This document shows, in pieces, positions 2,517 to 37,467 of a DNA stretch of 53,201 bases. Positions within the stretch are counted from its first letter, which is position 1. Each line of letters opens with the position of its first letter. The DNA is from an uncultured Bacteroidota bacterium (GTDB taxonomy: Bacteria; Bacteroidota; Bacteroidia; JABEUT01): positions 1 to 53,201 of the forward strand of contig CAIWVW010000101.1 in the NCBI GenBank assembly GCA_903916255.1, written 5' to 3'. The position numbers and the translations under genes were made by a program. The notes under the pieces were generated by a model. That model worked only from the letters and a program-made list of their open reading frames with translations, was not told the DNA's origin and made no database searches.

Positions 2517-4419
2517 CTTTATGCTTATGCCTTTTGATGGTTGCCGTTTTCTGTTCAGTAACTTTTCCCTTTTTCTTTTTAGGCGCAGTCTTTTCTTCCG
2601 CAAGATATTGAATGGTATTGCCTTGCATCATTTTTGTTTCGATGTCTTTTCTCCTGATGGTATCATTCAAATATTTTTCAATCATTAAACTGGCTATTGG
2701 CGCAGCCCAATCTGCCCCCCATCCACCACGCTCAATCACCACACTCACGGCAATGCGCGGATGGTCCTTAGGTGCAAAAGCAATAAACAATGAATTATTT
2801 CTTCCATTCGGGTTTTGGGCGGTACCTGTTTTCCCACACATAATTATCCCCGGAATTTTACTGCCGGCAGCTGTTCCGTCGTTCACCACATCGCACATAC
2901 CATCGGCAACAATGTCAAAATATTTTGCATCAATGGGTACAAAGTGCTTGGTTGCATATTTTTTTATAGTCGGTTTATCTCCGATAGATTTGATAATATG
3001 CGGCAGGTAATAATACCCCCTATTACCAATAATAGCAGCCTGATTAGCCATTTGCAAAGGAGTTACACCCAATTCTCCCTGACCAATTGCGAGTGAAATA
3101 ATAGTGGCCCCTTTCCAATGCCCGCGCCCATGATATTTGTCGTAATAATTTTGTGTAGGCAAGGAACCGCGCAATGCGCTTGGCAAATCTATATCCGGCC
3201 GGATGCCAATGCCAAAGCTGGTTACGTATCTCCTCCATGAATTAAAAGCATCTTCGGTAGAGTTATATTTTTTGTTATTCATGATGCTCATGAAAACATT
3301 ACAGAAATAGGTGTTGCAGGAAAGAGCAATCGCTTTTTCCAGTTGCAGTGTTCCATGCTTCGCATCGCACCCTACAGATATATTTCCCAAATGGAAAGCC
3401 CCGGGGCAATTGTAGGCAGTGTTTTCATTCAGCACGCCTTCCTGCTGCCCGATAAGGGCTTCAATGGTTTTGAATGTAGAACCGGGCGGGTACATTGCCA
3501 TCAGTGCACGGTTGAATAAAGGCACATCAATACTATCATGTAAAAGCTTTACATAATTTTTACCACGCACACTACCCACCATCAGGTTCGGGTCATACGA
3601 AGGGCTTGATACCAGCGCCAATATTTCGCCTGTCTCCGGATCAATGGCTACAATGCTGCCTGCCTTATTCTGCATTAATTGTTCACCATACTCCTGCAAT
3701 TCCGCATCAATACTGCAAGTCAGGTTAGCACCTGTTTGTGGGAGTGTATCAAACTTTCCACTTTTGTAATCGCCCACCTCTTTATTCATTGCATCGAACA
3801 TCATAATCTTAACGCCTTTTGTGCCGCGCAAATCGCTTTCGTAAGATTCCTCTATCCCGCTGATACCAATATAATCGCCCTCTTTATAATTCGGATTCCG
3901 GTCGCATAATGCTTTGTTCACTTCACCGATATACCCTAAAATATGCGGTGCCACTTTCATCGGGTACCGCCTTACTGTGCGCACCTGCGAGGTGAACCCG
4001 TGATATTTATAAAGCTTCTCCTGGAAGGCAGCATAAATCTCCGGCGTTACCTCTTTCATGAATACTGATGCGTGATACGCCGTATTTTGAATGGTCGCTT
4101 TTTTTATACCGGAAATAAAATCGGCTTTTGTAATTCCCAAATCACTGCAAAAGGAATCGGTATCAAAATCCTTGACAAGGGAAGGTGTTACAAGTATGTC
4201 ATAAGCCGCTTCATTTGTCACAAGTAAGCGTCCTTTGCGGTCATAAATACATCCCCGCGGGGGATATTGAGTGATATGCCTGAAGGTTTCATTACTCGCA
4301 TCCAGCTTAAGTGTTTCATCTATCACCTGCATGTAAAACATGCGGATGATAAAAGCTATGCACGCAACAAGAAAGATGCCGCCAATGATATATTTTCGGT
4401 CAGCAAAAAGGCTATTCAT
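2509..4419 (-). CDS. mrdA: penicillin-binding protein 2 (transpeptidase)
   Basis: PBP2 is the class B transpeptidase that cross-links peptidoglycan during elongation, anchored by one N-terminal membrane helix (about residues 10-30). The dimerisation domain covers about residues 40-230 and includes the conserved PPRGCIYDRKGRLL segment. The transpeptidase domain shows all three active-site motifs: S314-x-x-K317 in PPGSTFKT, SCN at 367-369, and KTG at 530-532. The last 30 residues are a Lys-rich tail (KKKKGK). The start overlaps mreD by 4 bp (ATGA) and the end overlaps rodA by 8 bp. Length (636) is normal for the family. Confidence 0.96.
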   Translation of the reverse strand: MNSLFADRKYIIGGIFLVACIAFIIRMFYMQVIDETLKLDASNETFRHITQYPPRGCIYDRKGRLLVTNEAAYDILVTPSLVKDFDTDSFCSDLGITKADFISGIKKATIQNTAYHASVFMKEVTPEIYAAFQEKLYKYHGFTSQVRTVRRYPMKVAPHILGYIGEVNKALCDRNPNYKEGDYIGISGIEESYESDLRGTKGVKIMMFDAMNKEVGDYKSGKFDTLPQTGANLTCSIDAELQEYGEQLMQNKAGSIVAIDPETGEILALVSSPSYDPNLMVGSVRGKNYVKLLHDSIDVPLFNRALMAMYPPGSTFKTIEALIGQQEGVLNENTAYNCPGAFHLGNISVGCDAKHGTLQLEKAIALSCNTYFCNVFMSIMNNKKYNSTEDAFNSWRRYVTSFGIGIRPDIDLPSALRGSLPTQNYYDKYHGRGHWKGATIISLAIGQGELGVTPLQMANQAAIIGNRGYYYLPHIIKSIGDKPTIKKYATKHFVPIDAKYFDIVADGMCDVVNDGTAAGSKIPGIIMCGKTGTAQNPNGRNNSLFIAFAPKDHPRIAVSVVIERGGWGADWAAPIASLMIEKYLNDTIRRKDIETKMMQGNTIQYLAEEKTAPKKKKGKVTEQKTATIKRHKHKDE

Positions 4420-4928
4420 GATGCGTTTCGGAATAAAATACTTTGTGTTACAAGGAGCAAAATAAGCGTGGTGACTCCACTTAAAATAACTTTAAGAAGC
4501 GTGGTGAAAAAACCGTGGAAGGACAGCATCTCCAAATAGAATAATACAAGGTGATGGAGGAAAACCAATACCCCCGCATAGCTCACCATCCAACGAATCC
4601 CCATAGAGCCGACCGTTGCCGAAGCATCTGCATTATAATCTCCCGCCGGCGAATAAAACCGCAGAATGGATGGCCTGCAAAAAGCCATAAAAGTACAGGC
4701 TGCCGCATTCATCCCCATGGTATTGTAAAACATATCTATAATTAATCCGGTGGCAAATGCAATAAACAATACAAGCGTTTTATCCATTCGCAAAGGCAGC
4801 ATCAAAATGGCGCCTACAAAGACAAAAGGATTGAAATAGATACCCATATCCAAATGCCTGATAATAGTAACCTGCAGCAGGATGAAAAACAGGAAACGAA
4901 GGATATTTTTGCCTGCTTCAATTATCAT
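4416..4928 (-). CDS. mreD: rod-shape-determining membrane protein MreD
   Basis: MreD is a small polytopic inner-membrane protein of the elongasome, linking MreC, PBP2 and RodA. This 170-residue protein has four to five hydrophobic segments and few charges (for example FLFFILLQVTIIRHLDMGIYF, a typical MreD opening followed by NPFVFVGAIL). MreD sequences diverge strongly, so the call rests mainly on size, topology and position between mreC and mrdA. It overlaps both neighbours by 4 bp in ATGA arrangements, so the three genes are translationally coupled. Confidence 0.9.
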   Translation of the reverse strand: MIIEAGKNILRFLFFILLQVTIIRHLDMGIYFNPFVFVGAILMLPLRMDKTLVLFIAFATGLIIDMFYNTMGMNAAACTFMAFCRPSILRFYSPAGDYNADASATVGSMGIRWMVSYAGVLVFLHHLVLFYLEMLSFHGFFTTLLKVILSGVTTLILLLVTQSILFRNAS

Positions 4929-33443: not shown

Positions 33444-33872
33444 TTCAAACAATTTCCTTAAAATTTTGTGCATTTTTTGTTCCTCCGAAATGTCCAGGTT
33501 TTATGCGTATTTGAAAACTGTGACAATGTTACTCTAAGCCAATACGGGCATAGGTTTGAGGTTATGTCACAGTGAACTTGAATTTTTGTGACATTTTTGA
33601 TGAAAGGCAAATGGGTGGTAAATGCAGGTCATTGACTTTTGGGGAAAAAGACATTTTAATACAGGTCGGAGCCCGACAGGCAAATATTAAAGGCAGTGTA
33701 ATTAAAAATTACAAATTAATAGGCACTGATTGCAAATCAGCACCTACGGGGGCCTGATATGCCAATCCACTAAATAGCGGTACCGCATTAGGTCGGAGCC
33801 CGAGCCGGATAGGCTATTATAAAAGTCATTGACTTTTGAAGAAAGCAACAAACTTTACCCTTAATTTACGGA
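33444..33872. other. repeat-rich gap after nuoD
   Basis: The 429-bp gap has no supported gene. It contains the palindromic element at 33676-33751, the 13-mer GGTCGGAGCCCGA twice (33664-33676 and 33791-33803), and the 14-mer GTCATTGACTTTTG twice (33628-33641 and 33825-33838). A TGTGACA / TGTCACA word also repeats between about 33520 and 33595. A 61-codon open frame at 33572-33757 runs through these repeats and is not credible. Confidence 0.6.
33676..33751 (+). repeat. palindromic repeat element, copy 1
   Basis: Core GGCACTGATTGCAAATCAG plus CACCTACGGGGG, preceded by AATATTAAAGGCAGTGTAA and ATTACAAATTAATA. The core folds as GGCACTGATT / AATCAGCACC with a GCA loop. Other copies are at 34109-34142, 34517-34595 and 37245-37277 (reverse). 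Confidence 0.8.
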
Positions 33873-34106
33873 ATGAAGAAAAAGAAAAAAGCCCCCAATA
33901 AGGATTTACAGAAACTGGCTAAGCGCATTAAAACATTACGCTTAAACCAGGGATATACCAATTTAGAGCACTTTGCTTTTGACCACTTTATTGCCCGAAC
34001 ACAGTATGCACGCTATGAACAAGGGGAAGATTTGCGCTTTACAAGCCTGCTTAAGTTGACAAGGGCCTTTGGGATTAGTTTAGAGGAATTCTTTGAAGGG
34101 TTTTAA
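33873..34106 (+). CDS. small XRE-family helix-turn-helix regulator
   Basis: The 77-residue protein is a single Cro/CI-type DNA-binding domain. After a basic N-terminus (KKKKKAPNK) the five-helix fold can be followed: LAKRIKTLRLNQGYTNLEHFA, then FIARTQYARYEQGEDLR, which contains the recognition helix, and TSLLKLTRAFGISLEEFF. It stands alone in the accessory region, with repeats on both sides, and could regulate itself or a neighbouring module. The start follows a GTCATTGACTTTTG copy, a possible operator, which is inference. Confidence 0.85.
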   Translation: MKKKKKAPNKDLQKLAKRIKTLRLNQGYTNLEHFAFDHFIARTQYARYEQGEDLRFTSLLKLTRAFGISLEEFFEGF

Positions 34107-34448: not shown

Positions 34449-34516
34449 GTCCGAGCCGGAATACTAACCACGGAGACACGGAGGGCACGGATTTGCACAA
34501 AGGCAGGATAAACCGG

Positions 34517-34595
34517 ACTGGCAAATAGTAAAGGCAGGGTAAACAAAGATTACAAATTATAAGGCACTGATTGCAAAGCAGCGCCTACGGGGGGG
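34517..34595 (+). repeat. palindromic repeat element, copy 3
   Basis: Nearly the same extended unit as copy 1: GGCAAATAGTAAAGGCAGGG, then ATTACAAATTATAAGGCACT and GATTGCAAAGCAGCGCCTACGG, divided here. Its terminal G run touches the stop codon of the DUF262 gene at 34596. Confidence 0.8.
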
Positions 34596-35597
34596 TTATT
34601 TAAGTATTTGCTTTATAAATATTTCAGCTCTTTTAACTCTTGCTTGTCTGCTATTTGTTCCAGTGTACATATATGCATAGTAAGTTGCAAATTCATTAGT
34701 GTCCTTTGGAGTATATTTACTAGCAAGCACATTCTTTTCCATCTCAATAAGTTTAGGTTTAATTTTTTCAAAATCAATGTATTTCGCGCGTGAAAGCTCA
34801 ACAACTAAAGTGAAAAAATTAGATTTCCTATACCAAATAGAATCTGGGTCAAGACCAAGCAATTTTATACCATCAAGCACAGAAATAATAATTTCTCTTA
34901 TTAAATCCTTATTGTGATATTCATCATTGAAAGAAGCAATATAAGTTTCAATTTCTTTATCTCCTGTAAAATATCCACCGGTTTCAATCGTTGCCATTGT
35001 TAAAAGAATAAAATGCAAGTCAGACATTCGTGACATTTCTGAATCACTAAATATTGGGATATGTTCAGTGTCGATGCTTTTTAGTATCTCCTTCGCTGTA
35101 GATATAAACTCGCCATCATATACAGCATTATGAATTTCCACCTGCTCAAGGCTAAATTTAGTTTGATTAATACGCTTAAATATTTCTCGAATAATTTCGG
35201 AAGAAATATCCTCAAGATCACGAATTACAACTTTGTAATTAACAAATTCAGCTTGCTCTTCAGGGCTCAATTTTTTGTACTTCGGAACAAGTTTTCCAAA
35301 AATTTTTGACTCTTCGGGCTCATCAATATATTGAATAATTGTGCTTAATCTTTGTTGCCCATCCACAACTACCTCTTGAGTTTCTATCTTCTCAATATCA
35401 ATCCCGGATTGAGCCGTATATATTTCGGGAAATGGTAATCCTTTCAAAATAGTTTCAATGAATGCCTCTTTATGTGAAGGAGTCCAAACAAATTTTCTTT
35501 GAAAATCCGGTTGTAGAATAAGTGATTTTTCTTTAATTCGTTTGTACAAGTCTCCAATTTTTTTATTACTTGGGCTTGATGGTAATTGTTTAGCCAT
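34596..35597 (-). CDS. stand-alone DUF262 (ParB/Srx-like NTPase) domain protein
   Basis: The 333-residue protein is a DUF262 domain without the HNH/DUF1524 nuclease half found in GmrSD-type type IV restriction enzymes. Visible motifs are QPDFQRKFVW (29-38), LKGLPFPEIY (51-60) and the NTP-binding VVDGQQRLSTI (77-87). In GmrS-like proteins this domain binds and hydrolyses nucleotides and controls the nuclease. The ATG is one nucleotide after the stop of the nucleotidyltransferase gene, so the pair is co-translated. Codon use is A/T-rich compared with nuo and typA, suggesting recent acquisition. A defence role is inference. Confidence 0.85.
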   Translation of the reverse strand: MAKQLPSSPSNKKIGDLYKRIKEKSLILQPDFQRKFVWTPSHKEAFIETILKGLPFPEIYTAQSGIDIEKIETQEVVVDGQQRLSTIIQYIDEPEESKIFGKLVPKYKKLSPEEQAEFVNYKVVIRDLEDISSEIIREIFKRINQTKFSLEQVEIHNAVYDGEFISTAKEILKSIDTEHIPIFSDSEMSRMSDLHFILLTMATIETGGYFTGDKEIETYIASFNDEYHNKDLIREIIISVLDGIKLLGLDPDSIWYRKSNFFTLVVELSRAKYIDFEKIKPKLIEMEKNVLASKYTPKDTNEFATYYAYMYTGTNSRQARVKRAEIFIKQILK

Positions 35598-35598
35598 A

Positions 35599-36204
35599 TT
35601 AATTAATATTGATTGAATTTATAGTATCTTCAATACTTGTTGTGTAATATTTTGAAAGATAATCATAGTTCTTAAATAGGCCTGCATTGACCTTATAATT
35701 TCCTACTTCAGATCTACCGTAAGATAAGGAATTGAAAAAATCAAACCATTCAGTTTTCAATAAACTAATTTGAAAAGAGAGAGGTAGTTTGTCGGGCCGC
35801 ATCCAACCTTTTACAAGATAGCGAAGAAATTCGTTATAAACTTTTAATTCTGTTTTATTTATGGTTCTGTAAAACCGATCAAGTTGATACTGATAGTCCG
35901 TAATTTTTAAATAGAATTCTTCAAAGAGCTTCTCATTTACGATTACAACATCGATATCAGAATCATAGCTGAACAAACTCATTTTATGATAACTAAAACC
36001 AAGTTTAGCTGACCCAACAATAAAAACCTCATGAAAACCAACTTTAAATTTATCCGCAATTTTCTTCCTGAATTCATAATATTCATTTTCTCTTTCTCTA
36101 AAAACAAATGGGATTCCATGAAACAAATATTTCTGTGCAAAAATATGTTGCTGTTCTGAACTTCTAGCTAAAACCAAAATATCTATGAATTCATCACGTG
36201 TCAT
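35599..36204 (-). CDS. minimal nucleotidyltransferase-like protein, partner of DUF262
   Basis: This 201-residue protein shows the core of the DNA polymerase beta-type nucleotidyltransferase fold: a helix turn with VGSAKLG (63-69) followed by DSDIDVVIV (81-89), where D83 and D85 would bind metal. The region after it is helical and rich in Tyr, Phe and Lys with no recognisable second domain. Similar minimal transferases occur in MNT/HEPN modules and as CD-NTase relatives; I cannot assign it to either. It precedes the DUF262 gene by 1 nt and has a good promoter 42 bp upstream. A/T-rich like its partner. Confidence 0.75.
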   Translation of the reverse strand: MTRDEFIDILVLARSSEQQHIFAQKYLFHGIPFVFRERENEYYEFRKKIADKFKVGFHEVFIVGSAKLGFSYHKMSLFSYDSDIDVVIVNEKLFEEFYLKITDYQYQLDRFYRTINKTELKVYNEFLRYLVKGWMRPDKLPLSFQISLLKTEWFDFFNSLSYGRSEVGNYKVNAGLFKNYDYLSKYYTTSIEDTINSININ

Positions 36205-36245: not shown

Positions 36246-36274
36246 CAAATATAGGGATTTTGATTGTTAAACAA
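36246..36274 (-). promoter_or_regulatory. consensus promoter of the nucleotidyltransferase-DUF262 operon
   Basis: On the minus strand TTG (36274-36272) and TATATTTG (36253-36246) are separated by 18 bp, the same spacing as the act-cox promoter. The predicted start lies about 35 nt before the ATG at 36204. Confidence 0.65.
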
Positions 36275-36341
36275 AAAAGCAGTATAGCTTTTATGAAAAA
36301 TAAGTTTGCTAGTATAATCAGGAAATGCAACTTTGAGGGTA

Positions 36342-36536
36342 CTCCCGTACGCGAAATTGCACTTCGTGGGCAAGTAACCTTTTAAGTTGCACTTATATAT
36401 TTATAGGAAACCCCGGCGGGGTTCAGAACAATGGTAATTCGCGTGAGGGATAGCAGCGTAAAGCACGCAGCCTAAAGCAGAGCGAAGCGCTTTAGTGGAG
36501 GCTCCCGAAATTACTTCGGGACAGGCTCCCGCTAAA
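36342..36536. repeat. long intergenic repeat R1, copy 1
   Basis: It shares CACTTCG(T/C)GGGCAAGTAACC, TTTTAAGTTGCACTTATAT, GCGTGAGGGATAGCAGCG (36441-36458) and GAAATTACTTCGGGACAGGC with 37312-37467. It contains small hairpins such as CCCGAA / TTCGGG and AACCCCG / GGGGTT. Copy 1 is longer, with an extra block around 36471-36500. Confidence 0.75.
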
Positions 36537-36572: not shown

Positions 36573-36842
36573 TCAAGGAAACTCTTTATAAAATATGCTG
36601 CGGTGGCAGAACCGGGTAACCCATACTTTATTACCGCGAATAACCAAACCGAGCCGGTAATCGTTTGCTACTTTAACCCTGTATAAGGTTTTGTAGTCTC
36701 TTAATTTCTTCAGTTGTTGAATTTGCGCTGTGGTTTTCGCTTCAGAAATATTACGGAATGCGCTATAAATGGCATTCAATGTATGCTTGTCGGAATGAGT
36801 AATTAAATCGCGGTAAAAACTGCCTTTAACAATCAACTCCAT
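36573..36842 (-). CDS. RelE/ParE-family toxin
   Basis: The 89-residue protein matches small RelE-type mRNA interferases or ParE-type toxins: an N-terminal helix pair (FYRDLITHSDKHTLNAIYSA), the central QLKKLRDYKTLYRVKVANDYRLG strand region, here split, and a C-terminal VWVTRFCHRSIFYKEFP. The ATG at 36842 (MELIVKGSF) is chosen over an upstream GTG-type start at 36872 because it begins the first beta strand and gives the usual 17-bp overlap with the antitoxin gene. It probably cleaves translated mRNA when the antitoxin is degraded. Confidence 0.8.
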   Translation of the reverse strand: MELIVKGSFYRDLITHSDKHTLNAIYSAFRNISEAKTTAQIQQLKKLRDYKTLYRVKVANDYRLGLVIRGNKVWVTRFCHRSIFYKEFP

Positions 36843-37035
36843 GCTTGCGGAAATAGGTGTAAACCTTTTCAAGCGGCACGTCCTCGCTTTTCATTCCTTC
36901 CTTAATCCACTTTGCCAGTAGCTTGTCTTCCATCTCTTCATCAGTCAGCACTCTCGATTTCAGGTGCAACTTTTTAAAGAGTTCTGCAACCACACTCTCA
37001 TCCTTATCAGGTACATTTACAATGATGGTCTTCAT
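36826..37035 (-). CDS. antitoxin paired with the RelE-type toxin
   Basis: The 69-residue protein lies upstream of, and overlaps by 17 bp, the RelE-like toxin gene, the standard order of a type II module. It has an N-terminal beta strand (KTIIVNVPDKDESVVAELFKK) and an acidic helical remainder with EEMEDKLLAKWIKEG, fitting antitoxins that dimerise at the N-terminus and mask the toxin with the C-terminus. A TATCTTTG -7 box (minus strand, 37068-37061) lies 26 bp upstream. The module is intact. Confidence 0.78.
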   Translation of the reverse strand: MKTIIVNVPDKDESVVAELFKKLHLKSRVLTDEEMEDKLLAKWIKEGMKSEDVPLEKVYTYFRKHGVDC

Positions 37036-37072: not shown

Positions 37073-37244
37073 AAATGAGTTAAAAGTGAAAAGTTAAACA
37101 GCCCGAATGTAGAGTAATGAATATTGAATGTAGATTTAAGAAGTGAGAGACAGTGCATTTCACTTCGTCATTCTTAAATCGGTGTTCGATATTCGTAAAT
37201 CGTCTTAGGCTTCCACCTCCGCTACTTGCTTCTCCTTGCGTTTG
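37073..37244. repeat. 172-bp duplication of the typA 3' end, copy A
   Basis: It aligns without gaps to 37469-37640 with 8 differences. Its right part (37207-37244) encodes, on the minus strand, [11 protein letters not shown] plus a TAA stop, the end of TypA. It stops exactly where palindromic copy 4 begins. Confidence 0.85.
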
Positions 37245-37277
37245 CCCCCGTAGGCGCTGATTTGCAATCAGTGCCTT
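37245..37277 (-). repeat. palindromic repeat element, copy 4 (reverse)
   Basis: On the minus strand AAGGCACTGATTGCAAATCA and GCGCCTACGGGGG, split here. The G run ends exactly at the boundary of the typA duplication copy A. Upstream on the minus strand, AGTACAAATTAATAAGGCAC matches the other copies. Confidence 0.8.
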
Positions 37278-37311
37278 ATTAATTTGTACTCTTTGATTAC
37301 CCGCAGTACAG

Positions 37312-37467
37312 CTCCCCCGTACCCGCAAAGTCGCACTTCGCGGGCAAGTAACCTTTTAAGTTGCACTTATATTTATTGGAAACCCCGGCAAAAATGGTAA
37401 TTTGCGTGAGGGATAGCAGCGGAAAGCCCGCAGCTTGCGAGGCTCCTGAAATTACTTCGGGACAGGC
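37312..37467. repeat. long intergenic repeat R1, copy 2
   Basis: Matches 36342-36536 over its ends and core, with the conserved GCGTGAGGGATAGCAGCG at 37404-37421. It is directly followed by typA duplication copy B. Confidence 0.75.

Follow-up and report, generated by a model that had tools for sequence, protein, structure and literature searches.

Several described defence systems are built around a DUF262 protein, and they differ in the partner that accompanies it. In the type IV or phosphorothioate-dependent enzymes GmrSD, BrxU and SspE, a DUF262 domain with the motif DGQQR is combined with a DUF1524/HNH nuclease, and in those parts of a 2025 survey on which we draw, single-gene nuclease and GmrS1/GmrSD2 architectures predominate among the 20 commonest enterobacterial DUF262 clusters (PMC12373910). 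PD-T4-2 is a two-gene operon in which a short, stand-alone DUF262 protein is followed by a HEPN protein (Vassallo et al. 2022, PMC9519451; domains in PMC10952713), Menshen (NsnABC) joins the DUF262 protein NsnA to an OLD nuclease (PMC10952713), and in the candidate defence operon PtuXYZ a short DUF262 protein without DUF1524, PtuX, is encoded with a toxin-like, RNA-acting partner, the BECR RNase PtuZ, alongside a P-loop ATPase (PMC11980606). Small nucleotidyltransferases (NTases) of the DNA polymerase beta type also occur beside a second gene, which is an AbiEi/MenA antitoxin in MenAT and AbiE and a HEPN protein in MNT/HEPN, the latter discussed as NTase-containing toxin-antitoxin dyads (PMC3710099).

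The locus described here combines elements of both groups in an arrangement for which we found no published description in the open-access literature; one may exist elsewhere. In the window, by which we mean the whole 53,201-nt stretch of DNA analysed, from an uncultured Bacteroidota bacterium, a small NTase-like gene abuts a gene for a stand-alone DUF262 protein. The layout recalls PD-T4-2, but the partner is an NTase encoded upstream rather than a HEPN protein encoded downstream, and the PD-T4-2_B profile does not match it. Unlike Menshen, the pair consists of two genes only, with no NsnB or NsnC homologue; unlike GmrSD, BrxU and SspE, it has no DUF1524/HNH nuclease in either gene; and unlike PtuXYZ, it contains an NTase. 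The partner of that NTase is a DUF262 protein, whereas in MenAT/AbiE it is an antitoxin and in MNT/HEPN a HEPN protein. With the nuclease, the HEPN partner and NsnB/NsnC absent, membership in GmrSD, PD-T4-2 and Menshen, respectively, was rejected. Judged from sequence comparison, the pair is probably a candidate defence system of the DUF262-based kind in which the type of partner is new.

An AT-rich two-gene operon in the window

The pair is encoded on the minus strand. Its neighbours in the window are housekeeping genes, nuo and typA, and not a defence island, which counts against a defence role. The locus comprises the following features.

34513 to 34593, no strand assigned: intergenic repeat of a dispersed kind, bordering the cassette on its 3' side and found again at 33672-33752 (86%) and, in inverted orientation, at 37244-37302 (93%)
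34596 to 35597, minus strand: DUF262/GmrSD_N (ParB/Srx-like NTPase) gene, 333 aa, DGQQR at residues 79-83, predicted sensor/regulator
35598 to 35598, minus strand: gap between the NTase and DUF262 genes, 1 nt, operon-like spacing
35599 to 36204, minus strand: nucleotidyltransferase-like (NTase) gene, 201 aa, GS-x17-DxD core, predicted effector
36246 to 36275, minus strand: predicted promoter, a consensus match only, TTTG-N18-TATATTTG, with 41 nt between its end and the NTase ATG
36344 to 36471, no strand assigned: intergenic repeat of a dispersed kind, bordering the cassette on its 5' side and found again at 37316-37434 (85%)

The reading frames, their strand and coordinates, and the single nucleotide between them all agree with the original prediction, which had also proposed a consensus promoter ahead of the pair; the element found there fits the Bacteroidota promoter consensus, with TTTG at -33 and TAnnTTTG at -7. 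The further claim that the pair is richer in A and T than the flanking nuo and typA genes is borne out by GC content, which is 0.295 in the NTase gene and 0.319 in the DUF262 gene versus 0.411 in the window, and by GC3, which is 0.24 and 0.23 versus 0.43 in nuoD and 0.50 in typA. Both genes are under purifying selection, with pN of 0.15-0.19 and pS of 0.67-0.88 when compared with their 72-75% identical homologues in L005 and L006.

On either side, the AT-rich stretch is bordered by dispersed repeats, some copies of which are direct and others inverted. The genes typA and nuoD are each conserved in comparable relatives of the genus but are not syntenic with each other there, and because this neighbourhood is not kept, no clean empty insertion site can be drawn within the genus. 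The NTase was not found in any of the ten other genomes of the genus, several of which are incomplete.

Three further observations concern the surrounding DNA. Short matches to the dispersed repeats of the window also occur between the genes of relatives. Directly upstream of the NTase promoter, overlapping ORFs of 69 and 99 aa (36573-37035, minus strand) resemble a RelBE-type toxin-antitoxin operon by eye, with no Pfam match at 0.01. A lone Cro/C1-type HTH regulator (PF01381, E = 1.1e-6) is encoded on the plus strand at 33873-34106, between nuoD and the cassette.

The upstream protein has a nucleotidyltransferase-like core

The NTase signature from which the first gene had been recognized, VGSAKLGF...YDSDIDVVIV, is present at residues 63-89 and supplies the hGS...DhD core of the DNA-polymerase-beta superfamily between two strands. 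All 18 aligned homologues, whose identity falls as low as 18%, share eight of its residues without exception (G64, S65, G69, F70, S71, S82, D83 and D85). An AlphaFold2 model of the 201-residue protein has a mean pLDDT of 88.9 and a pTM of 0.86, with predicted strands at 60-63 and 83-89 that flank the GS turn and DxD motif and block pLDDT values of 92, 85 and 95 over residues 61-90, so the fold prediction around residues 60-90 that had been suggested as a check returns a confident core.

In a single-sequence scan, the window protein taken alone is below threshold for Pfam NTP_transf_2 (E = 0.14), a family matched by 7 of the 18 aligned homologues (best E 8e-4), and in PHROGs the NTase family (16 of 18 members) corresponds to phrog_32008, listed as of unknown function. 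Foldseek gave no significant match in PDB or BFVD (all E > 0.2; all PDB matches > 0.6), though about half of the weak PDB matches are NTases, namely poly(A) polymerases, TUTs, pol lambda, cGAS and CdnC, and we therefore call the protein nucleotidyltransferase-like. This composition of the weak matches to the model is suggestive only, and the word nucleotidyltransferase draws on the motif, the predicted core fold and the weak but consistent family matches taken together.

No credible sequence match to the NTase was found in PADLOC 2.0, NCBIfam 20.0 or PDB. Membership in AbiE/MenAT was rejected, with no match to AbiEii or MenT profiles or to an AbiEi-type antitoxin in Pfam, NCBIfam or PADLOC, as was membership in MNT/HEPN, with no MNT-specific Pfam match above threshold, no HEPN neighbour and a sub-threshold NTP_transf_2 match. 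CBASS was likewise set aside, with no CD-NTase profile match in PADLOC and no gene with an effector domain in the operon.

The third catalytic carboxylate of the pol-beta fold is not clearly conserved. D138, within GWMRPD in the window and GWxRPD in subfamily I, is conserved in subfamily I and absent from subfamily II, which leaves room for members that are inactive or that rely on another residue. If the first protein were instead an inactive NTase-fold binding subunit of a DUF262 complex, serving for example in DNA or nucleotide recognition, then the missing carboxylate in subfamily II and the lack of a significant match to NTase structures would both be accommodated, but the invariance of the GS and of both DxD aspartates in 18 of 18 aligned members speaks against it, and we consider such a role unlikely.

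A DUF262 protein without a nuclease

The downstream protein matches Pfam GmrSD_N/DUF262 (PF03235) with E = 1.4e-22 and contains the motif VVDGQQRLSTI, and the original prediction of a DUF262 protein lacking an HNH/DUF1524 nuclease holds: no nuclease domain was found, with no Pfam match to DUF1524 or HNH in either window protein. Within the DUF262 alignment D79, G80, Q82 and R83 are invariant and Q81 nearly so, and conservation extends past the NTPase domain to K258 and to R320 and R323 at the C terminus. In PADLOC the best match is NsnA of Menshen (8.2e-34), which scores higher than PD-T4-2_A (2.6e-24). The predicted structure, which is of moderate confidence only (mean pLDDT 80.3, pTM 0.53), matches BrxU (probability 1.00), the ParB-like protein Noc (0.98) and SspE (0.96) in Foldseek.

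In two homologues, in L029 (6547-8058) and L150 (7483-9042), the DUF262 protein continues at its C terminus for about 150 aa more, a part that is without Pfam match and by eye recalls a B3/EcoRII-N-like DNA-binding domain; GmrSD_N is the sole domain match in both, and no nuclease was found.

The pair is conserved, rare and mobile

We identified 26 non-redundant NTase-DUF262 pairs (24 in the main survey, together with L146 and L147/L150), and in every one of them the NTase gene is directly upstream of the DUF262 gene and abuts it. The pairs were sought by NTase-first searches, by nucleotide searches in which a plasmid or viral copy of the pair was compared with E. coli genomes, and by a DUF262-first scan of viral contigs; all three routes arrive at the same units. 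Adjacency, proposed at the outset as a check on the pair, is thus near-universal within the NTase family. Among the pairs, the NTase of L024 is split by a frameshift, and L027 and L028 are near-identical. L039 is cut at a contig end and was not judged, and L003 and L012 are weak matches that the NTase profile did not confirm.

The carriers include Bacteroidota, Ignavibacterium, a 6.2-kb Cronobacter plasmid (L004), E. coli prophages and IMG/VR contigs. Copies in Ignavibacterium and Flavobacterium have nonsynonymous differences of only 2.3% in the NTase and 4.6% in the DUF262 protein, and the occurrence of near-identical proteins in such distant lineages indicates recent horizontal transfer between them. 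The NTase family is rare, being present in 6 of the 395 genomes sampled in the class, of which 2 have distant relatives only. INPHARED phage records gave no NTase match, so the known phage-related carriers are prophages and viral contigs rather than isolated phages.

Five distant NTase relatives (L009, L010, L011, L018 and L148/L154; profile E 1e-17 to 1e-24) are encoded without a DUF262 gene. In four of the five, from unrelated genomes or plasmids, a gene with a GT51 transglycosylase domain is directly upstream (L010:792-2076, L011:1207-2533, L018:5337-6591 and L154:5448-6795, the L011 GT51 gene being assigned by eye). The GT51/NTase pair is preceded in L154 by an HD-CE/HATPase gene and a PrrC/RloC-like AAA_13 gene, and DUF4365, PLD-like and TIR genes are near it in L018. 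The combination of GT51 with a distant NTase is a candidate for a second conflict operon.

Surroundings of the pair in other genomes

Two diverged NTase-DUF262 subfamilies occupy the same interval of the P2 gene order, between gpA and the portal gene gpQ: subfamily I in the E. coli 1500 prophage, at 3286-4880 of NZ_CP040269, and subfamily II in the IMG/VR contigs L014 and L016. E. coli ETEC1738 has a subfamily II pair as well. This interval is an experimentally supported hotspot of anti-phage defence that also carries non-defence cargo, including partition and toxin genes (PMC9122126). Elsewhere, L036 has an operon-like series of C5 methylase, NTase, DUF262 and SRA/HNH nuclease genes, beyond which PDDEXK and helicase genes lie on the opposite strand, L150 has C5 methylases on either side of the pair together with a BsaWI-like ORF, and L005 has an N6/N4 methylase near it. 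In L151 an IS91/integrase unit is present on each side of the pair, and an OLD-family nuclease is encoded about 4.8 kb off, so not adjacent to it; in L013, L015, L019 and L022/L037 it is found in other prophages or phage-like contigs. The association with defence contexts comprises the P2 hotspot in three loci and restriction-modification (R-M) or OLD neighbours in four.

Since the pair travels together among unrelated bacteria, plasmids and prophages, often beside anti-phage genes, it is probably an undescribed anti-virus system. The original prediction had raised the possibility of an undescribed defence module of these two genes, and adjacency, horizontal spread, the P2 hotspot and the R-M and OLD neighbours support it to the point where we consider the pair very probably a mobile two-gene anti-phage or conflict module.

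Sister operons and the roles of the two proteins

The DUF262 proteins next in similarity to those of the pair, on viral contigs, have a HEPN gene directly downstream, which is the PD-T4-2 arrangement. In the sample surveyed, the 24 NTase-linked DUF262 genes have no HEPN gene and the 20 HEPN-linked ones have no NTase gene, the 20 being those kept in the tree, of which 11 were recognized by a HEPN profile made for this analysis and 9 by the RNxxAH motif only. Pfam support for HEPN, where checked, was strong in L079 (2.6e-12), marginal in L056 (0.011) and absent in L051. In the DUF262 tree, which we used instead of a bit-score gap because that gap is partly circular (the profile was built from NTase-linked rows), the HEPN-linked proteins are the nearest neighbours of the NTase-linked ones. 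The latter separate into two groups, each of them supported (SH-aLRT 98 and 100), and the branching of the HEPN-linked group between these two is unresolved. With a p-AU of 0.485 for one clade of all NTase-linked proteins, monophyly is neither shown nor rejected. As a separate observation, the DUF262 gene of L055 (5929-8021) overlaps the next ORF, which encodes a RelA/SpoT synthetase domain (PF04607, E = 3.6e-12) and is a further candidate effector partner.

These operons give the impression of a single, sensor-like DUF262 core whose partners can be exchanged, and the published systems agree with it: DNA nucleases accompany DUF262 in GmrSD, BrxU and SspE, HEPN in PD-T4-2, an OLD nuclease in Menshen and a BECR RNase in PtuXYZ. 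Sister operons with HEPN in place of the NTase make the NTase more likely to be the exchangeable effector and DUF262 the sensor or regulator. The original prediction had the NTase signalling to or modifying DUF262, for which we found no support, and these HEPN-bearing operons favour the NTase as effector; we incline somewhat towards an NTase effector gated by DUF262.

Gene order gives some weight to the opposite assignment, since the effector genes of the sister operons are downstream of DUF262, whereas the NTase is upstream, a place often taken by an antitoxin. The roles would then be those of a toxin-antitoxin system in which DUF262 is toxic and the NTase silences it by AMPylation or otherwise, as MNT does with HEPN. 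The upstream position of the NTase in all pairs, the one-to-one pairing, the discussion of MNT/HEPN as toxin-antitoxin dyads (PMC3710099) and the conservation of DUF262 beyond its NTPase domain (R320, R323 and K258) are consistent with this. DUF262, however, has no recognisable effector domain and its best folds are BrxU, SspE and ParB-like proteins, related DUF262 proteins pair with HEPN or RelA/SpoT proteins that themselves look like effectors, and an MNT-specific Pfam match above threshold was not found, so that a reversal of roles seems doubtful to us.

Remaining alternatives and a proposed mechanism

The frequency of the pair on prophages, its presence on a small plasmid and the partition and toxin genes held by the P2 gpA-gpQ locus (PMC9122126) would also suit a selfish addiction module or maintenance factor of prophages and plasmids with no part in defence, its chromosomal copies being remnants, but chromosomal copies also lie beside R-M and OLD genes and purifying selection is evident, which leaves this reading improbable. 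CBASS-like signalling, in which a nucleotide second messenger made by the NTase activates the DUF262 NTPase, could appeal to the GS...DxD core common to CD-NTases and to CdnC and cGAS among the weak Foldseek matches, yet it is a poor prospect given PDB E-values all above 0.6, the absent PADLOC CD-NTase match, an NTase of about 200 aa without the larger CD-NTase body, a DUF262 protein without a nuclease and no Cap2, Cap3 or HORMA genes, and because there is no third, separate gene for a killing effector, the pair is not CBASS-like by the available evidence.

We favour DUF262 sensing, an NTase effector and defence by growth arrest, a combination to which we give a rough probability of 0.55, and from sequence and predicted structure we infer the following scheme. 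DUF262, a ParB/Srx-type NTPase akin to the regulatory half of GmrSD, BrxU and SspE, would sense infection, the candidate triggers being DNA that is foreign or carries modifications and an altered nucleotide state. Binding or hydrolysis of NTP by DUF262 would then release or activate the partner pol-beta-type NTase, which would attach nucleotides to a molecule of the host or the phage, tRNA or another RNA being the most plausible target. Modification of the target would lead to growth arrest ahead of phage release, so that defence would probably be abortive.

RelA/SpoT-type toxins act on RNA or tRNA. HEPN proteins act on RNA (PMC3710099), and MenT, an NTase toxin of another family, extends tRNA acceptor stems (PMC10435456). 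It is because these proteins act on RNA or tRNA that such a target is suggested for the NTase, and by analogy alone we offer it as a tentative proposal.

The chances are about even that a DUF262 sensor with a pol-beta NTase effector represents a widespread undescribed anti-phage family and that DUF262 is a general sensor platform. If this is the case, then the effectors of DUF262 would be interchangeable, with a DNA nuclease in GmrSD, a HEPN RNase in PD-T4-2, a RelA/SpoT-like synthetase and an NTase as the known or candidate forms. Stand-alone DUF262 proteins are common, and the NTase-DUF262 pair supplies a fixed, compact 1.6-kb unit with mutable catalytic motifs. Natural copies in E. coli prophages sit where defence systems were already cloned, which opens the idea of swappable effectors to direct test. 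Should RNA be the substrate of the NTase, the pair would link sensing of the type IV restriction kind to defence by translation arrest.
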